From a virus, in the IMG/VR virus record IMGVR_UViG_3300036845_000138, positions 1 to 41,269 of that record: DNA of 41,269 bases; one strand, given 5' to 3'. Below are positions 9,659 through 40,734 of the stretch, piece after piece (the first letter of the stretch is position 1; the number at the start of each line of letters is the position of its first letter). Both the position numbers and the translations under genes were made by a program. Under the pieces are notes generated by a model. It was not told the DNA's origin, did not search any database, and was given only the letters and a program-made list of their open reading frames with translations.

Positions 9659-11827
9659 ATGCCTTCGATTCCCCGTGACCTAAATGAAACAGCGGTTACG
9701 GACGATGAAATAGTCAAAGAGTGCATGGAGCGGCTACGCGTTGCCGAAGCCGCCGAATCGGAGAATAGAGCGCGTGGCGTATTGGCCTTGGAGTTTCGCG
9801 ACGGTCATCAGTGGCCCGATGACCTTTACAATCAGCGCAAGATCGATAAGCGCCCAAGCCTCACGATTAACCATACAAATACCTTTGTACGGCGTGTGGT
9901 CAACAACATGCGCCAGCAAAGGCCGCGCATCAAAGTCCACCCCGTGGGTGATGGGGCGGATGTGGGCAAGGCGGATGTCATATCCGGCATCATTCGCCAC
10001 ATCGAGAACATGTCGAATGCGAGCATTGCCTACGACACGGGTGGTGAATCGTCGGTATCGATAGGGTGGGGTTACTGGCGCGTCCTCTCCGACTACATCG
10101 AGCAAGACAGTTTCGATCAGGAATTGAAGATCGTTCCGATTCGAAACTCTTTCACCGTTTACTTCGATCCCTCATCGGTGATGCCCGCTGGTGAAGATGC
10201 GCAGTGGTGCATCATCACGGAAAAGATGAAGCGCGAAGATTACAAGCGCGATTACCCGGATGCAGACAACACCGAATTCCAGCGCTCTGGCCAGGGCGAC
10301 GCGATGGCGGAATGGGAATCCAAGGAGGACATTCGTCTCGCCGAGTACTACCGGATACGCAAGACTGAGGACACGTTGTACCGCATGTCGAACGGCATGG
10401 CGTTGTTTCAGGATCAAATCGATGAGCTATCGGATGAGCTATCCGCCGCCGAAGTGACGCATCTGAAGGACGGCAAGGGCAAGAAGGTCTCCCGCCCATC
10501 GACGCGCACACAAGTCGAATGGTTCCGCTTAAACGGCGCGAACATCGTTGACCGGCGTTCGAAGGATAATGACCCGCTGCCCGATAAGTGGATACCGGTC
10601 ATTCGCTGCGAAGGCAACGTACTCGACTTGAACGGGCGCGTGCGCCGCAAGGGCATGGTTGAGGACTTGATGGACCCCGCGCGCATGTACAACTACTGGC
10701 GCACCATGGAAACGGAACTCCTGGCCTTGGCACCGAAGGCGCCCTTCATCGTCGCGGCGGGCCAGTTGGATGGCCACCCGGAATGGAAGGACGCGAATCA
10801 GCGGCCCTACTCCGCACTCGTGTACGAACCGGCCTTTGTCGAGCAGCCCGATGGCAGCAAGACCCTACTGCCGCCGCCGCAGCGTATGCAGCCGATCCCG
10901 GTGCCTGCGGGAGCGGTGCAGGCGGCGCAAGGCGCGCAGCAAGATTTGATGGCAGTGGCAGGCATGCCGCATGAACCATCAGCCGATGTACCGGGCGCGG
11001 CGATCTCAGGCGTCGCCTTGCGCCAGCGCCAAGCGCTCTCTGACATCGGGCACTTTCAGTACTACGACAATCAGACGCGGGCGATAGCGCACACCGGGCG
11101 CATCTTGCTGCAACTGATCCCGTTCTACTACAACGGGCAGCGTATGCAGCGGATCATCGGGGAGGACGGCACACCGGCCATGGCGCCGATCAATCAGCCG
11201 CAACAGAACCCGATGAACCCGGCAATCATGTCGGTGCTGAATGACATGAGCATCGGTCGCTACGATGTGGTCATGGACACCGGTCCCGGCTATGAGACCA
11301 AGCGCTTGGAAGGCGCTGAATCGATGATCGATTTGCTCAAGACGCCGCTCGCCGAACCGATTGTAAAAGTCGGTGCTGACGTGATCGTGCGCGGTATGGA
11401 CTTCAATGGTGCGTCCGACTTGGCAGACCGCTTGATGGCGGTCAATCCCACGGCTATGCAACAGGCGTTGCCGGGACTGCCGAAACAGGCACAGCAGATT
11501 ATTTCGACCATGCAACAGCAGTTGCAGCAAGCGCAATCGACCATTCAGCAATTGCAGTTGGAAATTAAGTACAAGACCAACATCGAGCAAGGCTGGATGA
11601 AAGTCGAAGAGGACAAGATCAAAGCCAAGTCTGGCGAAGTTGTTCTCTCGAATCTCACCAAGAAGGAAGATACGCACGTGCGGGCGATCACATCGACCCA
11701 CGTTGCCGAGATTCAAGCCGCCGCGCAGCTTCTCAACACGGACAAGGAAGCCGCGCATGAGAAGGAAGCACAGAAGGCGTTGCTTGCATCCGCTACCAAT
11801 GCTGAACGTTCGAATGGAGCCGGATAA
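9659..11827 (+). CDS. Portal protein (P22 gp1-like)
   Basis: A 722-residue protein, the size of P22 gp1 (725 residues). It shows the portal N-terminal region with RDGHQWPDDLYNQRKIDKRPSL, the FVRRVVNNMRQQRPRIKVHP segment, a central stem and wing, and a long Gln-rich helical C-terminus (about 590-660) that in P22 forms the barrel extending into the head. Twelve copies form the vertex through which TerL packages DNA and to which gp4 binds. The stop overlaps the 3' end of an opposite-strand tRNA by 13 bases. Confidence 0.93.
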   Translation: MPSIPRDLNETAVTDDEIVKECMERLRVAEAAESENRARGVLALEFRDGHQWPDDLYNQRKIDKRPSLTINHTNTFVRRVVNNMRQQRPRIKVHPVGDGADVGKADVISGIIRHIENMSNASIAYDTGGESSVSIGWGYWRVLSDYIEQDSFDQELKIVPIRNSFTVYFDPSSVMPAGEDAQWCIITEKMKREDYKRDYPDADNTEFQRSGQGDAMAEWESKEDIRLAEYYRIRKTEDTLYRMSNGMALFQDQIDELSDELSAAEVTHLKDGKGKKVSRPSTRTQVEWFRLNGANIVDRRSKDNDPLPDKWIPVIRCEGNVLDLNGRVRRKGMVEDLMDPARMYNYWRTMETELLALAPKAPFIVAAGQLDGHPEWKDANQRPYSALVYEPAFVEQPDGSKTLLPPPQRMQPIPVPAGAVQAAQGAQQDLMAVAGMPHEPSADVPGAAISGVALRQRQALSDIGHFQYYDNQTRAIAHTGRILLQLIPFYYNGQRMQRIIGEDGTPAMAPINQPQQNPMNPAIMSVLNDMSIGRYDVVMDTGPGYETKRLEGAESMIDLLKTPLAEPIVKVGADVIVRGMDFNGASDLADRLMAVNPTAMQQALPGLPKQAQQIISTMQQQLQQAQSTIQQLQLEIKYKTNIEQGWMKVEEDKIKAKSGEVVLSNLTKKEDTHVRAITSTHVAEIQAAAQLLNTDKEAAHEKEAQKALLASATNAERSNGAG

Positions 11828-11888
11828 CGGAATCGAACCGTTGTCGATGGGTTACGGAGCCATAGCTCTGCCATTGAGCTAATCCGGC
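11815..11888 (-). tRNA. tRNA, probably Thr(CGU) type with non-canonical position 33
   Basis: The complement folds into a full cloverleaf of 74 nt: acceptor stem GCCGGAT/ATCCGGC (7 bp), D arm GCTC-AATGGCA-GAGC, T arm AACGG-TTCGATT-CCGTT, discriminator T and encoded CCA. The anticodon stem ATGGC/CCCAT has one C-C mismatch and loop TCCGTAA, which by position reads anticodon CGU with C instead of the near-universal U at position 33. U73 and the GTAA loop end fit threonine tRNAs. It lies opposite to the late genes, between portal and scaffold, so it would need its own leftward transcript. Confidence 0.85.
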
Positions 11889-28757: not shown

Positions 28758-29627
28758 TTATTTCGTTAATTCATTAAGCGCCATCAACGACAGCAAATGC
28801 GCCTGATCAAATTCTTTGATCAAGCCGTGCTGTAGCGCGGTATGCATCTTATCCTTCGCGTGCCGCAAGAATGAGATGGCATCACGCACGTTCACCGGGA
28901 CAGGGGTTATGATCCCTCCCTTAGAATCGAACGGCACCCCAAGAGCGTTCGCTACCGCGTGCGCTTCCTTGCCACGGTTTTTCATGTACGTCCGTGGAAT
29001 CTTCCCGCCTAAAGTTCGCCGCCAATAGTCAATCCCGCTCACCGAAGTCCCTATCTCTTTGGCAATGTCAGTAATGCGCTCACCCTTCGCAACCCTCGCA
29101 AGAATTTCCATTTTGTACTCGCGACTGAACCTACTTACCGCTGGATTTGCGCTTGTAGGTAACGGGTGCTTAAGCGTGCTTTTCTTTGGACTGGCGCGTT
29201 TAGTTTCCGGGGAGTACTTAGCGCGCCACGCTGACAGCATGCTGCTACTAATCTTCAAATCTTTGGAAATCGCAGTGCCGGTTTCCTTCCCCTTGTTCCA
29301 GCGTTCGACCGCTTTGCGCTTATAGGCTTCTGAGTACATCCTGGTGCCGAGACGCGTCACTGAAACGCCTTGTACCTTGGTGGGCTTCGCTGTACTAGTC
29401 TTACCTAAATCGCCGGTCATCCACCGTCGCAGCACCGTGGGATGAATGTGTAGCTGATTGGCTAGTGTTGTGGTGGTTCCCGTCCATTTTTTCGCCCTCG
29501 CGACTGCTTTACGTTTGAAGTCCTCATCGAACTCACGCCTTGGGACGATCTTGCGTCCCTTGCTGTCGTGGGCCACGGGGGCGGCTTCGGGGAGTGGTGG
29601 GGTCTCTATTGCGTTAGCTTCGGCCAT
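28758..29627 (-). CDS. DNA-binding protein with three tandem helix-turn-helix repeats
   Basis: A 289-residue protein with three repeats of the transposase-OrfA-like HTH (HTH_Tnp_1 pattern): [16 protein letters not shown] (residue 33), [16 protein letters not shown] (97) and [16 protein letters not shown] (168), each followed by a recognition helix ending in W (VLRRWM, MLSAWR, GIDYWR). IS3-family OrfA normally has one such domain and is followed by an integrase gene; neither applies here. Residues 210-289 are a separate helical domain. A multivalent DNA-binding regulator is likely. AGAGGA precedes the start; it overlaps the upstream gene by 14 bases. Confidence 0.65.
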
Positions 29628-37909: not shown

Positions 37910-38074
37910 ATGACAATGCTAATCGTGTTGCTACTGGTGGTCGCCGTGATCATCGCAGTTCTCTCAGGCTTGAATCCGCCGAAGGCTAAACTGTGGTGGG
38001 CAGTGGTCGCTATCGCCATAGCGGTATTCCTATGCTGTGGAATGTCACTCTTGAAAGGCGCCACCGGAGGGTAA
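37910..38074 (+). CDS. Two-TM small membrane protein, 54 aa
   Basis: MTMLIVLLLVVAVIIAVLSG and WWAVVAIAIAVFLCCGMSLL are two clear membrane segments joined by a short polar turn (LNPPKAKL). Last gene of the rightward early operon, closed by a terminator. A holin-like function is possible but there is no neighbouring endolysin. Confidence 0.6.
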   Translation: MTMLIVLLLVVAVIIAVLSGLNPPKAKLWWAVVAIAIAVFLCCGMSLLKGATGG

Positions 38075-38099
38075 AAAAAAGGCCCGCGACATGCGGGCC
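38073..38099. terminator. Bidirectional intrinsic terminator between convergent operons
   Basis: Stem GGCCCGC/GCGGGCC (38081-38087, 38093-38099), loop GACAT. For leftward transcription it is followed by eight U (A-run 38073-38080), a strong terminator for the ribozyme operon. For rightward transcription the downstream TGTTTCTT is a weaker tract. Confidence 0.88.
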
Positions 38100-38122
38100 T
38101 GTTTCTTGGACTTGAATTGAAT

Positions 38123-38326
38123 CTATTCGCGTTCGCCGCAATAGGCGCACGTTTTCATATCCACAAGCCGCTCCAACGCCAGGAACACCAAGCGCGGTAT
38201 CTCCCTATCCCCCGCACAATAGCGGCGCATTGAACGCTCATCGATGTCCAATTGCATCGCTGCGGCGCGTTGGCTCAATTCAAGCCGCTCCAAGAGCGCC
38301 CGTAGGCGCTTGATATCATCGCTCAT
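38123..38326 (-). CDS. XRE-type HTH protein with terminal zinc knuckle, 67 aa
   Basis: IKRLRALLERLELSQRAAAMQLDIDERSMRRYCAGD is an XRE/Cro-CI type helix-turn-helix; the C-terminus carries CAYCGE. AGGAGTT precedes the ATG. Last gene of the leftward ribozyme operon, overlapping the gene before it. It could be the regulator that binds the palindromes near 40784-40858; it is the best remaining candidate for a lysogeny repressor although it lacks a CI-type C-terminal domain. Confidence 0.6.
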   Translation of the reverse strand: MSDDIKRLRALLERLELSQRAAAMQLDIDERSMRRYCAGDREIPRLVFLALERLVDMKTCAYCGERE

Positions 38327-38631
38327 ACTTGAACTCCTAAGAGGCGCGCTATACGGCGCGCACTCGCGTGCGTGACATTGGGAGGAATGTGTAACGTGCG
38401 TGACTCATGCGCGCCCGTTAGGAATTCCATGGAATTGAACAATTGAATCCGCGTGTAATCCCCCGTTATGCACTCGACGCCACCGACATGCGCGGTACGC
38501 GTTTCGTGCAAGGTTTTGACAGCATCGCGTAGGCCCATGGCGCCGAAGGACTGCGATTGCTCTTCATCAAGGCAGCCCTCGGCTGCGGATTCTGGCGTGA
38601 CGATTTCACTCGTGACAGCGAAGCGAATCAT
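38323..38631 (-). CDS. Hypothetical protein, 102 aa
   Basis: Unrecognised. Contains SEIVTPESAAEGCLDEEQSQSFGAMGLRDAVKTLHETRTAHVGGVECI; the C-terminal half predicts helix. ATGA overlaps on both sides show coupled translation in the ribozyme operon. Confidence 0.6.
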   Translation of the reverse strand: MIRFAVTSEIVTPESAAEGCLDEEQSQSFGAMGLRDAVKTLHETRTAHVGGVECITGDYTRIQLFNSMEFLTGAHESRTLHIPPNVTHASARRIARLLGVQV

Positions 38632-39107
38632 GAGAAAAACCGCCGTGCTATACCAGCACCGAATTCGCGCTTGAATGAGGCGCGCAAGTAATCGCCCGCC
38701 GATTGCTTAAGCTCCAAGAGCCGCGCATCGCTCGGCATGGACGTATCGCGCATCCATGCCCATAGCGTCGAACTCAAGAGACGACAGACTGCCGCGCGGT
38801 ACTCAGTCGGCCAATACTGGCCAGTGGTGTACTCGATGGCGTAGTGGTCTACCGTTTGCGCGTCCTTCGTGACTTGAACGAACGACAGTCGGCCATTTTT
38901 CGCTGCCTCTTCGATCATGTCGGCGGTAATTGAATCGCGCCATTCAATCGCCGATAGCAAGGTCCGTGCCGTGTGCAAGTCTTTGGTGATTGACCGCATT
39001 TCACTGCGGTACGCGGACACGTCCCCATAATTGCCGAACTCCAAACCAGGACGCTGCGCAATGAACGCGCGCAATGCTTCTAGAATCATCTGCTTTCGAA
39101 TTTCCAT
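38628..39107 (-). CDS. Hypothetical protein downstream of ribozyme A, 159 aa
   Basis: Unrecognised, helical, with YGDVSAYRSEMRSITKDLHTARTLLSAIEW and a C-terminal FKREFGAGIARRF. Starts three bases after the 3' end of hammerhead A (39111), so its start codon lies almost on stem II; cleavage or folding of the ribozyme could directly affect its translation. The longer frame to 39164 would run through the ribozyme and is rejected. Confidence 0.65.
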   Translation of the reverse strand: MEIRKQMILEALRAFIAQRPGLEFGNYGDVSAYRSEMRSITKDLHTARTLLSAIEWRDSITADMIEEAAKNGRLSFVQVTKDAQTVDHYAIEYTTGQYWPTEYRAAVCRLLSSTLWAWMRDTSMPSDARLLELKQSAGDYLRASFKREFGAGIARRFFS

Positions 39108-39110
39108 GGT

Positions 39111-39173
39111 GGTCTCATCAGTACCGGAAAATACCGGCAGACATGCGCGCGCCAATGCGCGCACGTTTCGACC
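39111..39173 (-). ncRNA. Type II hammerhead ribozyme A
   Basis: Minus-strand RNA, 63 nt, from 39173 down to 39111: stem II strand GGUC, GAAA, stem III (CGUGCGCGC paired with GCGCGCAUG, loop AUUG), triplet GUC, stem I (UGCCGG with CCGGUA, loop UAUUUU), CUGAUGA, stem II strand GACC. All invariant core bases are present. Predicted cleavage between 39140 (C17) and 39139. The ribozyme begins at the last base of the UAG stop of the 39173-39502 gene and ends three bases before the next ATG. Confidence 0.93.
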
Positions 39174-39502
39174 TATTCGGCTGCGCTATTGATCGCGTCC
39201 TGTAACGCCTCTTCGCGCGTCTTGAATGGTCCAATCGCAGGACCTTCGGGCATGCAACCAGGAAAGCAGCACCACCAGAAGAAACCGCCGACAATGGAAT
39301 TGTCCTCAATCATCGCGGCTACCATCTTGTCGCGGGTTGCGCGATTCATCGACGCCAAACGAAACTCATGCTTGCGCATGTATTCGTGGAGCATATCTTC
39401 GTCTTGCTCGGCGGTTTCCTCGGCGGTCAGTTCAAAGACTTCAATGTCGGGCAGCGAATACTTATCGGCTGCGCGTTCTGGACTTGAATAGTGTTGTGAC
39501 AT
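39173..39502 (-). CDS. Hypothetical acidic protein between ribozymes A and B, 109 aa
   Basis: Unrecognised. The first half is acidic (VFELTAEETAEQDEDMLHEYMRKHEF), then helical, with GGFFWWCCFPGCMPEGPAIG near 74-93, a Cys-rich aromatic patch that may bind metal, and a helical end. The ribosome site AGGAG sits 14 bases upstream in a leader shared with the 39844-40104 gene. Stop UAG feeds directly into ribozyme A. Confidence 0.65.
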   Translation of the reverse strand: MSQHYSSPERAADKYSLPDIEVFELTAEETAEQDEDMLHEYMRKHEFRLASMNRATRDKMVAAMIEDNSIVGGFFWWCCFPGCMPEGPAIGPFKTREEALQDAINSAAE

Positions 39503-39526
39503 GTCTCATTGCTCCTATGTAGTGTT
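39503..39526 (-). promoter_or_regulatory. Shared leader with ribosome site downstream of ribozyme B
   Basis: Minus strand ACATAGGAGCAATGAG (39519-39504) follows hammerhead B and carries the ribosome site for the next gene. The same 16 bases follow hammerhead C (40122-40107), so ribozyme plus leader look like a duplicated cassette. Confidence 0.7.
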
Positions 39527-39580
39527 GGTCTCATCAGCGCACGAACTACGTGCGGACGCGCATCGTTGCGCGTTTCGACC
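39527..39580 (-). ncRNA. Type II hammerhead ribozyme B
   Basis: Minus-strand RNA, 54 nt: GGUC, GAAA, stem III CGCGCA/UGCGCG with loop ACGA, triplet GUC, stem I CGCACG/CGUGCG with loop UAGUU, CUGAUGA, GACC. Every paired position is Watson-Crick. Predicted cleavage between 39555 (C17) and 39554. Starts at the stop codon of the 39580-39834 gene. Confidence 0.95.
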
Positions 39581-39834
39581 TATTGGCGTTCGCCAGGGTA
39601 GATGTCCTCTTGATTGTCTGTGCCCAATGCAATCGACGCGCACAGCGCTGCGCAGTCCTGTAGGCGCTTGGTGATTGCTTGATTGTCGTCAAGCTCGGCG
39701 ATATCCGCGCGCGCCTCATCGATGACCGCTACGCAATCGCGACCAATCGGCGAATCAATCAGCACACTTTCAAGGCATTGCTGATAGGCGGAATCGCCTA
39801 ACTCTTGAATGAAATACCAATGAATGGTGGGCAT
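39580..39834 (-). CDS. Hypothetical protein, 84 aa
   Basis: Unrecognised, acidic and helical (FIQELGDSAYQQCLESVLID; AVIDEARADIAELDDNQAITKRLQDCAALCASIAL). AGGAG precedes the ATG and overlaps the upstream stop. Its UAG stop opens ribozyme B. Confidence 0.65.
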   Translation of the reverse strand: MPTIHWYFIQELGDSAYQQCLESVLIDSPIGRDCVAVIDEARADIAELDDNQAITKRLQDCAALCASIALGTDNQEDIYPGERQ

Positions 39835-39843
39835 TGAATGCTC

Positions 39844-40104
39844 CTAGATAACTTCGGAACAATCGACGCCATGCTGCGTCAAGGCCGCGACTACGCACGA
39901 CGGCAGTTCAAAAACGCCATCGTAGTCACGGACACTGCCGTCAATGATGGTTAGCCCACCAGTGCGGTAATAGCCGCTCGTGTTGGTGGTGTCGGCCTTC
40001 GTGGCTTCGAATCCGTGGAAAGAGGCGCCAGACTGCGCACGACGGTAAAGGTCTACCAGGTACGCGCCTACCGTGACGCTAACGGTTTGTACATCGTCTC
40101 TCAT
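39844..40104 (-). CDS. Hypothetical protein downstream of ribozyme C, 86 aa
   Basis: Unrecognised. Mixed alpha/beta, MRDDVQTVSVTVGAYLVDLYRRAQSG then TGGLTIIDGSVRDYDGVFELPSCVVAALTQHG. It follows the duplicated AGGAGCAATGAG leader. Within that leader an out-of-frame ATG (40114) opens a 10-codon reading frame overlapping this start, which may modulate translation. Confidence 0.6.
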   Translation of the reverse strand: MRDDVQTVSVTVGAYLVDLYRRAQSGASFHGFEATKADTTNTSGYYRTGGLTIIDGSVRDYDGVFELPSCVVAALTQHGVDCSEVI

Positions 40105-40106
40105 CG

Positions 40107-40127
40107 CTCATTGCTCCTATGTGGTTG
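40107..40127 (-). promoter_or_regulatory. Shared leader with ribosome site downstream of ribozyme C
   Basis: Minus strand ACATAGGAGCAATGAG at 40122-40107, identical to the leader after ribozyme B, between hammerhead C and the ATG at 40104. Confidence 0.7.
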
Positions 40128-40185
40128 GGTCTCATCAGTGCCCGCGTTACGGGCATACGGCGCGCCTCTTCGCGCCGTTTCGACC
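40128..40185 (-). ncRNA. Type II hammerhead ribozyme C
   Basis: Minus-strand RNA, 58 nt: GGUC, GAAA, stem III CGGCGCG/CGCGCCG with loop AAGAGG, triplet GUA, stem I UGCCCG/CGGGCA with loop UAACG, CUGAUGA, GACC. Predicted cleavage between 40156 (A17) and 40155. It begins at the last base of the UAG stop of the 40185-40394 gene. Stems differ in sequence from copies A and B while the core is fixed: covariation within one genome. Confidence 0.95.
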
Positions 40186-40394
40186 TATTGCTGTGGGAGC
40201 TTGTAGCGCTCCAACCAGGAAGGACCGAACTGGTTGCGGACTTGCTGTAAGGCAGGCTGGTAGTAGGCGAATCGACCGCCAGCAACCATCCAGGCTTCGC
40301 GTAGCGCAGACTTCCAGCGCGCGCCGTAGTGCTGTGCCCAAACTTGCAGAGCCGCTAATTGCTCGGCTGTGGGTTGCTGTTTCGGGGCGCGCAT
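40185..40394 (-). CDS. Conserved small phage protein, 69 aa
   Basis: AEQLAALQVWAQHYGARWKSALREAWMVAGGR ... LQQVRNQFGPSWLERYKL is a pattern I recall in several Gram-negative phages: a single helical bundle, function unknown. ATG 40394 overlaps the previous stop (TAATG); ATG 40409 is an alternative. Its UAG stop opens ribozyme C. Confidence 0.65.
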   Translation of the reverse strand: MRAPKQQPTAEQLAALQVWAQHYGARWKSALREAWMVAGGRFAYYQPALQQVRNQFGPSWLERYKLPQQ

Positions 40395-40609
40395 TACATG
40401 ACTCCGCAAGCAGTGAGAAACGTTTCGCGGTCAAAACGCGGATTAGTGCGCGCCAGTTCTGTGGCCATGCACGTGCAAGTCATTTCCCATTGCAGGTAGA
40501 TCGAACGACATGCATCGTTCTGGTTTTGTGGCTGCGCCATTTCGGCTTTGCTACCAGGACGCTGGTAACGCAGTGCGTTCGCAATCAACACGAAGTCTTT
40601 GCGTGTCAT
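40394..40609 (-). CDS. Conserved small phage protein, 71 aa
   Basis: MTRKDFVLIANALRYQRPG ... ATELARTNPRFDRETFLTACGV is a familiar arrangement of small early phage proteins (helical, ending near a conserved F...F..ACG). ATGA overlap with the upstream gene. Function unknown. Confidence 0.7.
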   Translation of the reverse strand: MTRKDFVLIANALRYQRPGSKAEMAQPQNQNDACRSIYLQWEMTCTCMATELARTNPRFDRETFLTACGVM

Positions 40610-40734
40610 TTGCGCACCATGGCGCGTAACGCGTTATTGGCTGCGAACTCATTGCGCACGCTGCGGTATGTGGCAATCGGCGCCGTCTTGGCAGGCATGT
40701 TTGCCTTAGCTGCCTGGTAATCGTAATAGCTCAT
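40606..40734 (-). CDS. Leading microprotein of the ribozyme operon, 42 aa
   Basis: MSYYDYQAAKANMPAKTAPIATYRSVRNEF...ending RAMVRK; short, basic and helical. It is the first gene after the operon promoter, and its stop overlaps the next start (ATGA), which supports real translation. GTAGGACCAAAT in front of the ATG repeats the operator half-site. Confidence 0.55.
   Translation of the reverse strand: MSYYDYQAAKANMPAKTAPIATYRSVRNEFAANNALRAMVRK

Follow-up and report, generated by a model that had tools for sequence, protein, structure and literature searches.

The Phage Record and Its Ribozyme Operon

The window (the whole stretch of DNA analyzed here, IMG/VR virus record IMGVR_UViG_3300036845_000138, 41,269 bases) encodes a terminase large subunit akin to those of P22-like podoviruses, with 47–60% identity to Rhizobium, Escherichia, and Salmonella phages, together with portal, scaffold, major head, and head-closure proteins, an integrase, and an Erf-like annealing protein. 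To judge from the sequence, its source is a temperate podovirus-like phage. A tRNA-Thr (CGU) at 11815–11888 on the minus strand lies antisense among the structural genes and overlaps the 3′ end of the portal ORF (9659–11827), and a 289-aa protein encoded at 28758–29627 on the minus strand contains several HTH_Tnp_1-like (transposase N-terminal) stretches.

The operon of interest runs along the minus strand from about 40734 to 38073, with a terminator at its end, and is divided by three hammerhead ribozymes (HHR1–HHR3) into four blocks, A-B-C, D-E, F, and G-H-I:

40606–40734, minus strand: gene A, 42 aa, block 1; read from the sequence
40394–40609, minus strand: gene B, 71 aa, block 1; overlaps A
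40185–40394, minus strand: gene C, 69 aa, block 1; overlaps B, and its stop shares one base with HHR1
39844–40104, minus strand: gene D, 86 aa, block 2; AGGAG ahead of the AUG, in common with the junction after HHR2
39580–39834, minus strand: gene E, 84 aa, block 2
39173–39502, minus strand: gene F, 109 aa, block 3; homologue in loci L100/L325 has a hammerhead at the equivalent place
38628–39107, minus strand: gene G, 159 aa, block 4
38323–38631, minus strand: gene H, 102 aa, block 4
38123–38326, minus strand: gene I, 67 aa, HTH-like, block 4
38073–38100, minus strand: intrinsic terminator (hairpin 38100–38080), GGCCCGC..GCGGGCC, then a T run

Genes overlap within blocks (A/B, B/C, G/H, H/I) or, in the case of D and E, lie a short distance apart, and no ribozyme lies between the members of a block. 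The HTH-like last gene, I, gives the sole functional hint among the small proteins of the operon. Because no sigma-70-type promoter was found when one was sought upstream of the operon, we can only infer its co-transcription. A Trp_leader match at 38196–38074 was rejected as owed mostly to the terminator hairpin. The gene G AUG at 39107 lies 7 nt past the HHR3 core, without a clear ribosome-binding site, and the gene G frame stays open upstream through HHR3 up to a GTG at 39164 (minus strand).

Sequence and Fold of the Three Ribozymes

From 5′ to 3′ on the minus strand, each copy reads GGUC-GAAA(C)-hairpin III-UH-hairpin I-CUGAUGA-GACC, and the G of the upstream UAG stop codon is in each case the first base of stem II:

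40128–40185, minus strand: HHR1, predicted type II hammerhead; GGUC, GAAA, stem III of 8 bp, UA, stem I of 17 nt (loop UAACG), CUGAUGA, GACC
39527–39580, minus strand: HHR2, predicted type II hammerhead; stem III of 7 bp, UC, stem I of 17 nt (loop UAGUU, which departs from the UNANG consensus)
39111–39173, minus strand: HHR3, predicted type II hammerhead; stem III of 10 bp, UC, stem I of 18 nt (hexaloop UAUUUU)
A40156 (A17)/U40155, minus strand: HHR1 cut predicted from the sequence
C39555 (C17)/C39554, minus strand: HHR2 cut predicted from the sequence
C39140 (C17)/U39139, minus strand: HHR3 cut predicted from the sequence
40185–40187, minus strand: gene C UAG stop, its G the first base of HHR1 stem II
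39580–39582, minus strand: gene E UAG stop, its G the first base of HHR2 stem II
39173–39175, minus strand: gene F UAG stop, its G the first base of HHR3 stem II

The hammerhead core (CUGANGA, GAAA, and the UH cleavage site) is exact in all three copies, all of which have the type II topology, with loops capping stems I and III and an open 4-bp stem II. RNAfold returns the hammerhead three-way junction as both the minimum free energy and the centroid structure in each case (z −3.5, −2.4, and −2.7). Stem II is identical among the three, and stems I and III vary yet stay paired; by inspection, HHR2 and HHR3 have a potential 4-bp pairing with the tail, and none is clear for HHR1. An earlier, sequence-only reading had proposed three motifs with these coordinates, core, and closed stems I and III, which the sequence and RNAfold bear out, and had predicted 5′ ends at 40155, 39554, and 39139, in agreement with the cut sites derived here. 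Its placement of the three sites at three gene junctions on one strand of one operon also stands, the operon ending in a terminator hairpin, as does its statement that the stems covary among the copies, which applies to stems I and III, stem II being identical. Sequence, structure, and covariation among relatives thus support the assignment of the three elements as type II hammerheads.

Detection and Exclusion of Chance

The Rfam Hammerhead_II model (RF02276) matches all three sites with 27.6–29.0 bits (E ∼1e-5), below its gathering score of 37 bits, and no hammerhead match above the Rfam gathering threshold occurs anywhere in the 41,269-base window. The expectation of strong Infernal matches to Rfam models therefore held for the location of the matches and failed for their strength; the matches are only sub-threshold because the Rfam model describes another sub-type. 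A covariance model built from 58 relatives with the window excluded (R1) scores HHR2 at 61.4 bits (E 2e-14), HHR1 at 56.4 (E 5e-13), and HHR3 at 47.8 (E 1.4e-10). The lack of a covariance-model match, which the sequence-only reading had named as telling against it, is thus not what was found, R1 recovering three of three at E values from 2e-14 to about 1e-10. On whole genomes R1 is lossy, a known copy in a Caulobacter genome being missed, and a genome-wide R1 search was dropped.

A loose pattern (GAAAC..T..CTGATGA) occurs in the window only at these three sites, on the minus strand, against 0.16 expected. The full descriptor gave 0.005 matches per shuffled window, with three or more in none of 200 shuffles, and no match in 2.64 Mb of shuffled DNA compared with 443 in related loci; four scrambled cores each gave none in the same related loci. 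A chance origin of the three motifs is excluded.

Relatives, Arrays, and Covariation

A strict search pattern of 20 fixed bases with a GGUC/GACC stem II was found in at least 119 stretches of viral contigs, and its sister pattern, GGAC/GUCC, in at least 120; the mismatched combination GGAC/GACC was found twice in a complete scan. Because both paired forms are abundant and the mismatched form is rare, stem II pairing is under selection. A full scan of the genomes of 84,980 bacterial and archaeal species with the strict pattern yielded 66 stretches. Many of the bacterial-genome GGUC/GACC copies are in Candidatus Gastranaerophilales assemblies, often paired ∼360 nt apart. In the alignment of the 58 relatives underlying R1, 13 of 16 pairs show two-sided changes with pairing kept; these sequences were pre-selected for most of the pairing, so the figure of 100% paired is not independent. 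RNAalifold recovered the same structure from the relatives unprompted.

Applied to all fetched loci, the descriptor identified, among the matches listed, 264 loci with 443 non-redundant type II hammerheads between them. Among the same listed matches, 92 of 265 locus-strands hold at least two copies, 33 at least three, 11 at least five, and four at least eight, with ten distinct copies in L122 and at least eight, roughly one per gene, in L075. Three ribozymes in one operon, which had been singled out as the most unusual feature of this phage, are thus not exceptional, given the 33 sampled locus-strands with three or more, the four with eight or more, and a triple array already described (Perreault 2011; PMC3088659). 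The L075 hammerheads (13998–9152, minus strand) stand behind about eight consecutive small genes, and a tandem repeat built of CACCACCCTAGG-like units precedes them. The L122 array mixes two type II kinds, its first copies having a 3–4-bp stem II and a loop I complementary to the tail (pseudoknot type) and its later copies a 4-bp stem II and a stem I of the 17-nt type.

A Compact Sub-type with a 17-Nucleotide Stem I

Within this viral sample, which was gathered by the GGTC and GGAC stem II patterns among the matches listed and to which the sub-type shares apply, stem I is exactly 17 nt long in 347 of the 443 hammerheads and 18 nt in 60. The 17-nt stem I has 6 bp and a G-C-closed loop of 5 nt that mostly reads UNANG, and the 18-nt loops are mostly UNAAUG-like. 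An A lies directly 5′ of stem II in 334 of the 347 members of the 17-nt class and directly 3′ in 286. Complementarity between loop I and the tail shows no excess in this class (75 compared with 72.4 after shuffling, SD 6.2), whereas hammerheads with a stem I of at least 19 nt have an excess of loop I-tail matches of 5 bp or more (15 compared with 7.1, SD 2.2). In 13 hammerhead-rich loci just two copies exceed the Rfam cut-off, both in L122 and both with a longer loop I that by inspection is complementary to the tail. HHR1 fits the 17-nt class, HHR2 fits it by length but not by loop, and HHR3, whose loop is unusual, belongs to the 18-nt kind.

The type II consensus of Perreault (2011; PMC3088659) combines a short stem II with a pseudoknot that links loop I to the 3′ tail. 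In contrast, the class nearest to the window has a 4-bp stem II with an A on both sides, a 17-nt stem I, and a UNANG loop, shows no pseudoknot excess, and scores under the cut-off of RF02276. A limited literature search found no account of such a 17-nt, stop-abutting sub-type that has an A on each flank of stem II, lacks a pseudoknot signal, and nearly always scores under the Rfam cut-off, and which HHR1 matches best of the three copies. This compact sub-class may be a new variant of type II.

Stop Codons and Gene Junctions

Among the 407 listed relatives of the 17- and 18-nt classes used for the junction statistics, 283 (70%) have an upstream stop codon 6–13 nt ahead of GAAA, compared with 2.5% at displaced control points, the commonest placements being UAG at −6, UAA at −7, and UAA at −9. 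The same set is depleted of ORFs that end within the ribozyme (4.7% compared with 17.9% in the control). Where a downstream start was scored, it lies at a median of ∼25 nt past CUGANGA, an approximate value since 70 of the matches are an AUG within the core. The structure and conservation of the ribozymes and their position at gene junctions are direct observations.

Over the 12 nt before the start, likeness among the ribozyme junctions of one locus is 0.45, compared with 0.32 to the other starts of that locus, which suggests from sequence likeness that stop, ribozyme, ribosome-binding site, and start are copied as a unit. The flanking genes turn over, junction pairs with one homologous neighbor numbering 861 compared with 149 with both. 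The idea that the ribozyme travels with its upstream gene, prompted by L100, was rejected, linkage being symmetric across loci (355 compared with 506 pairs, in 29 and 25 groups).

Relatives of Genes F and G

The phage collection contains no match to protein F or protein G. In viral contigs, five of eight gene G relatives that were identified through the protein alone are in contigs with R1 ribozymes, in which stem II is GGCC/GGCC, not GGUC/GACC; copies from two of these loci, L192 and L195, were included in model R1. The gene G relatives L189–L191 have no R1 match, and R1 gave no significant match on the terminase-sharing Rhizobium phages RHph_N2 and RHph_Y25 (the latter chosen as the second of its group), Microcystis phage MJing1, or Achromobacter phage CF418P1, which was covered in its first 50 kb. 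The ribozymes are therefore dispensable.

The gene F homologue in L100 (56% identity over the full alignment) ends likewise, GAAUAGGUCGAAAC, with a full hammerhead, and is followed by a different gene. Among 12 gene F loci, of which L332 ends before the stop codon, R1 matches L325 only, apparently the same sequence as L100. Five ribozyme-free loci (L191, L330, L331, L327, and L323) carry a long hairpin that lies at the stop codon of the F homologue or shortly after it. One slot may thus be filled by different structured elements, which would favor a role at mRNA ends or in processing. A second new ribozyme in L191/L330/L331 was considered and rejected, since the fold of the repeated junction element is a long imperfect hairpin in which mismatches recur regularly, and a pattern made from it matched only its own contig among viral contigs.

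Alike 50-nt imperfect hairpins stand behind several stops in gene F phages without the hammerhead (L317, 4803–4854 and 5521–5572; L331, 2405 and 2813). They show one compensatory change (A-U to C-G) between two copies and resemble an RNase III-type site, with no known Rfam family. In L328, directly after the stop of the F homologue (2855–2870), TAGTCGAAACGTAGG is like the first part of the hammerhead only, and is either a decayed copy or chance.

Proposed Processing and Alternative Explanations

We consider it probable that the three type II hammerheads are cis-acting transcript-processing sites that turn one message into four mRNAs with hairpin ends. The ribozymes would fold during transcription of the operon, each cutting after its UH, to give an A-B-C mRNA, a D-E mRNA of 601 nt (40155–39555), an F mRNA of 415 nt (39554–39140), and a G-H-I mRNA with the terminator. 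To our knowledge, type II is the sole hammerhead arrangement that closes both stem I and stem III, and for this reason a hairpin would remain on each new end: the upstream mRNA would keep a 3′ hairpin (stem III, with a 2′,3′-cyclic phosphate) directly behind its stop codon, and the downstream mRNA would carry stem I as a 5′-OH hairpin from its first base onward. Such protected ends would probably serve to set the lifetime and dose of each block separately. We infer self-cleavage of these copies, protection of their ends, and separate dosing; the cleavage speed of HHR2 and HHR3 is uncertain because their loops I (UAGUU and UAUUUU) are off the sub-type consensus. The sequence-only reading proposed that processing could tune the stability of each gene separately; the predicted cuts part blocks of three, two, one, and three genes rather than every gene.

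The contact between stop codon and ribozyme in all three copies, and its tightly constrained proximity in most of the 407 relatives, could also point to a translation-coupled switch, in which a ribosome ending at the stop prevents folding by sitting on GGUC-GAAA and a portion of stem III. Cutting would then occur only if the upstream gene is untranslated or between ribosomes, and cleavage would report on and regulate translation. However, a compact phage genome would pack any element barred from coding sequence equally tightly, and folding is possible between ribosomes, and we regard such a switch as rather unlikely. It is highly improbable that the motifs act mainly as hairpins behind stops, as an exonuclease block or an RNase III-type site, with ribozyme activity minor or lost: the hairpins at or behind the equivalent stop in the ribozyme-free gene F relatives listed above are in keeping with such a role, but the catalytic core, which hairpins do not need, is intact in all copies, and four scrambled cores gave no match in the same loci.

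The identity of stem II in three copies whose stems I and III differ raises the further idea that halves of neighboring copies share stem II and rebuild a hammerhead at the excised ends, yielding ligated or circularized gene-length RNAs. Agreement at the third stem II pair is indeed higher within than across arrays (0.79 compared with 0.50), even with diverged stem I, yet shared ancestry suffices to account for this, since stem III pairs agree too (F 0.27–0.50) and stems II and III do not differ significantly (bootstrap −0.15 to 0.53). In mixed arrays, neighboring copies show no surplus of agreement (17 of 33 compared with 16.4), and a search for such products found none (Perreault 2011; PMC3088659). 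Interchangeable halves and circular mRNA were rejected, within-array stem II agreement being no greater than ancestry predicts, and this reading is barely credible. Processing in cis into hairpin-ended mRNAs is the reading that we prefer.

Known Systems and Implications

In T7-type early mRNAs, RNase III sites are intercistronic structured elements, and the cut polycistronic mRNA keeps hairpin ends; unlike at hammerheads, a host protein makes the cut and the RNA has no catalytic core. The HDV-like theta ribozymes of gut phages are self-cleaving, associated with tRNA genes, and have been proposed to process transcripts (PMC10879173), but belong to another ribozyme class and lie beside tRNA genes rather than at protein-gene junctions. 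The closest precedents are the clustered type II hammerheads of prophages, which flank single genes (Perreault 2011; PMC3088659); as with the three copies here, several hammerheads flank genes or short blocks in a phage. Cleavage of three of those arrays was shown, the triple array cleaving in vitro and in E. coli, four of 18 consensus hammerheads tested gave no cleavage, and transcript processing was already proposed (Perreault 2011; PMC3088659). Neither type II prophage arrays nor their interpretation as processing sites is therefore new.

More tentatively, and as a possibility on which we would place less than even weight, the ribozymes of the window may belong to a large, phage-borne, pseudoknot-free sub-class with the 17-nt stem I, UNANG loop, A-flanked 4-bp stem II, and adjoining stop codon described above and with a loop contact undescribed for type II, largely overlooked below the Rfam cut-off, that forms a portable stop-to-start junction by which phage operons are cut up to yield capped mRNAs and is possibly controlled by the terminating ribosome. 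The field still regards the role of phage hammerheads as open (PMC6155905), and this phage, with three copies in one short operon and exact predicted ends, offers a clean natural test. Our survey suggests that the ribozyme all but includes the stop codon, and any coupling of cutting to translation can therefore be put to a direct test. Judging from the same survey, arrays of this kind seem to be widespread among viral contigs, with a common compact sub-type slipping beneath the usual annotation threshold.
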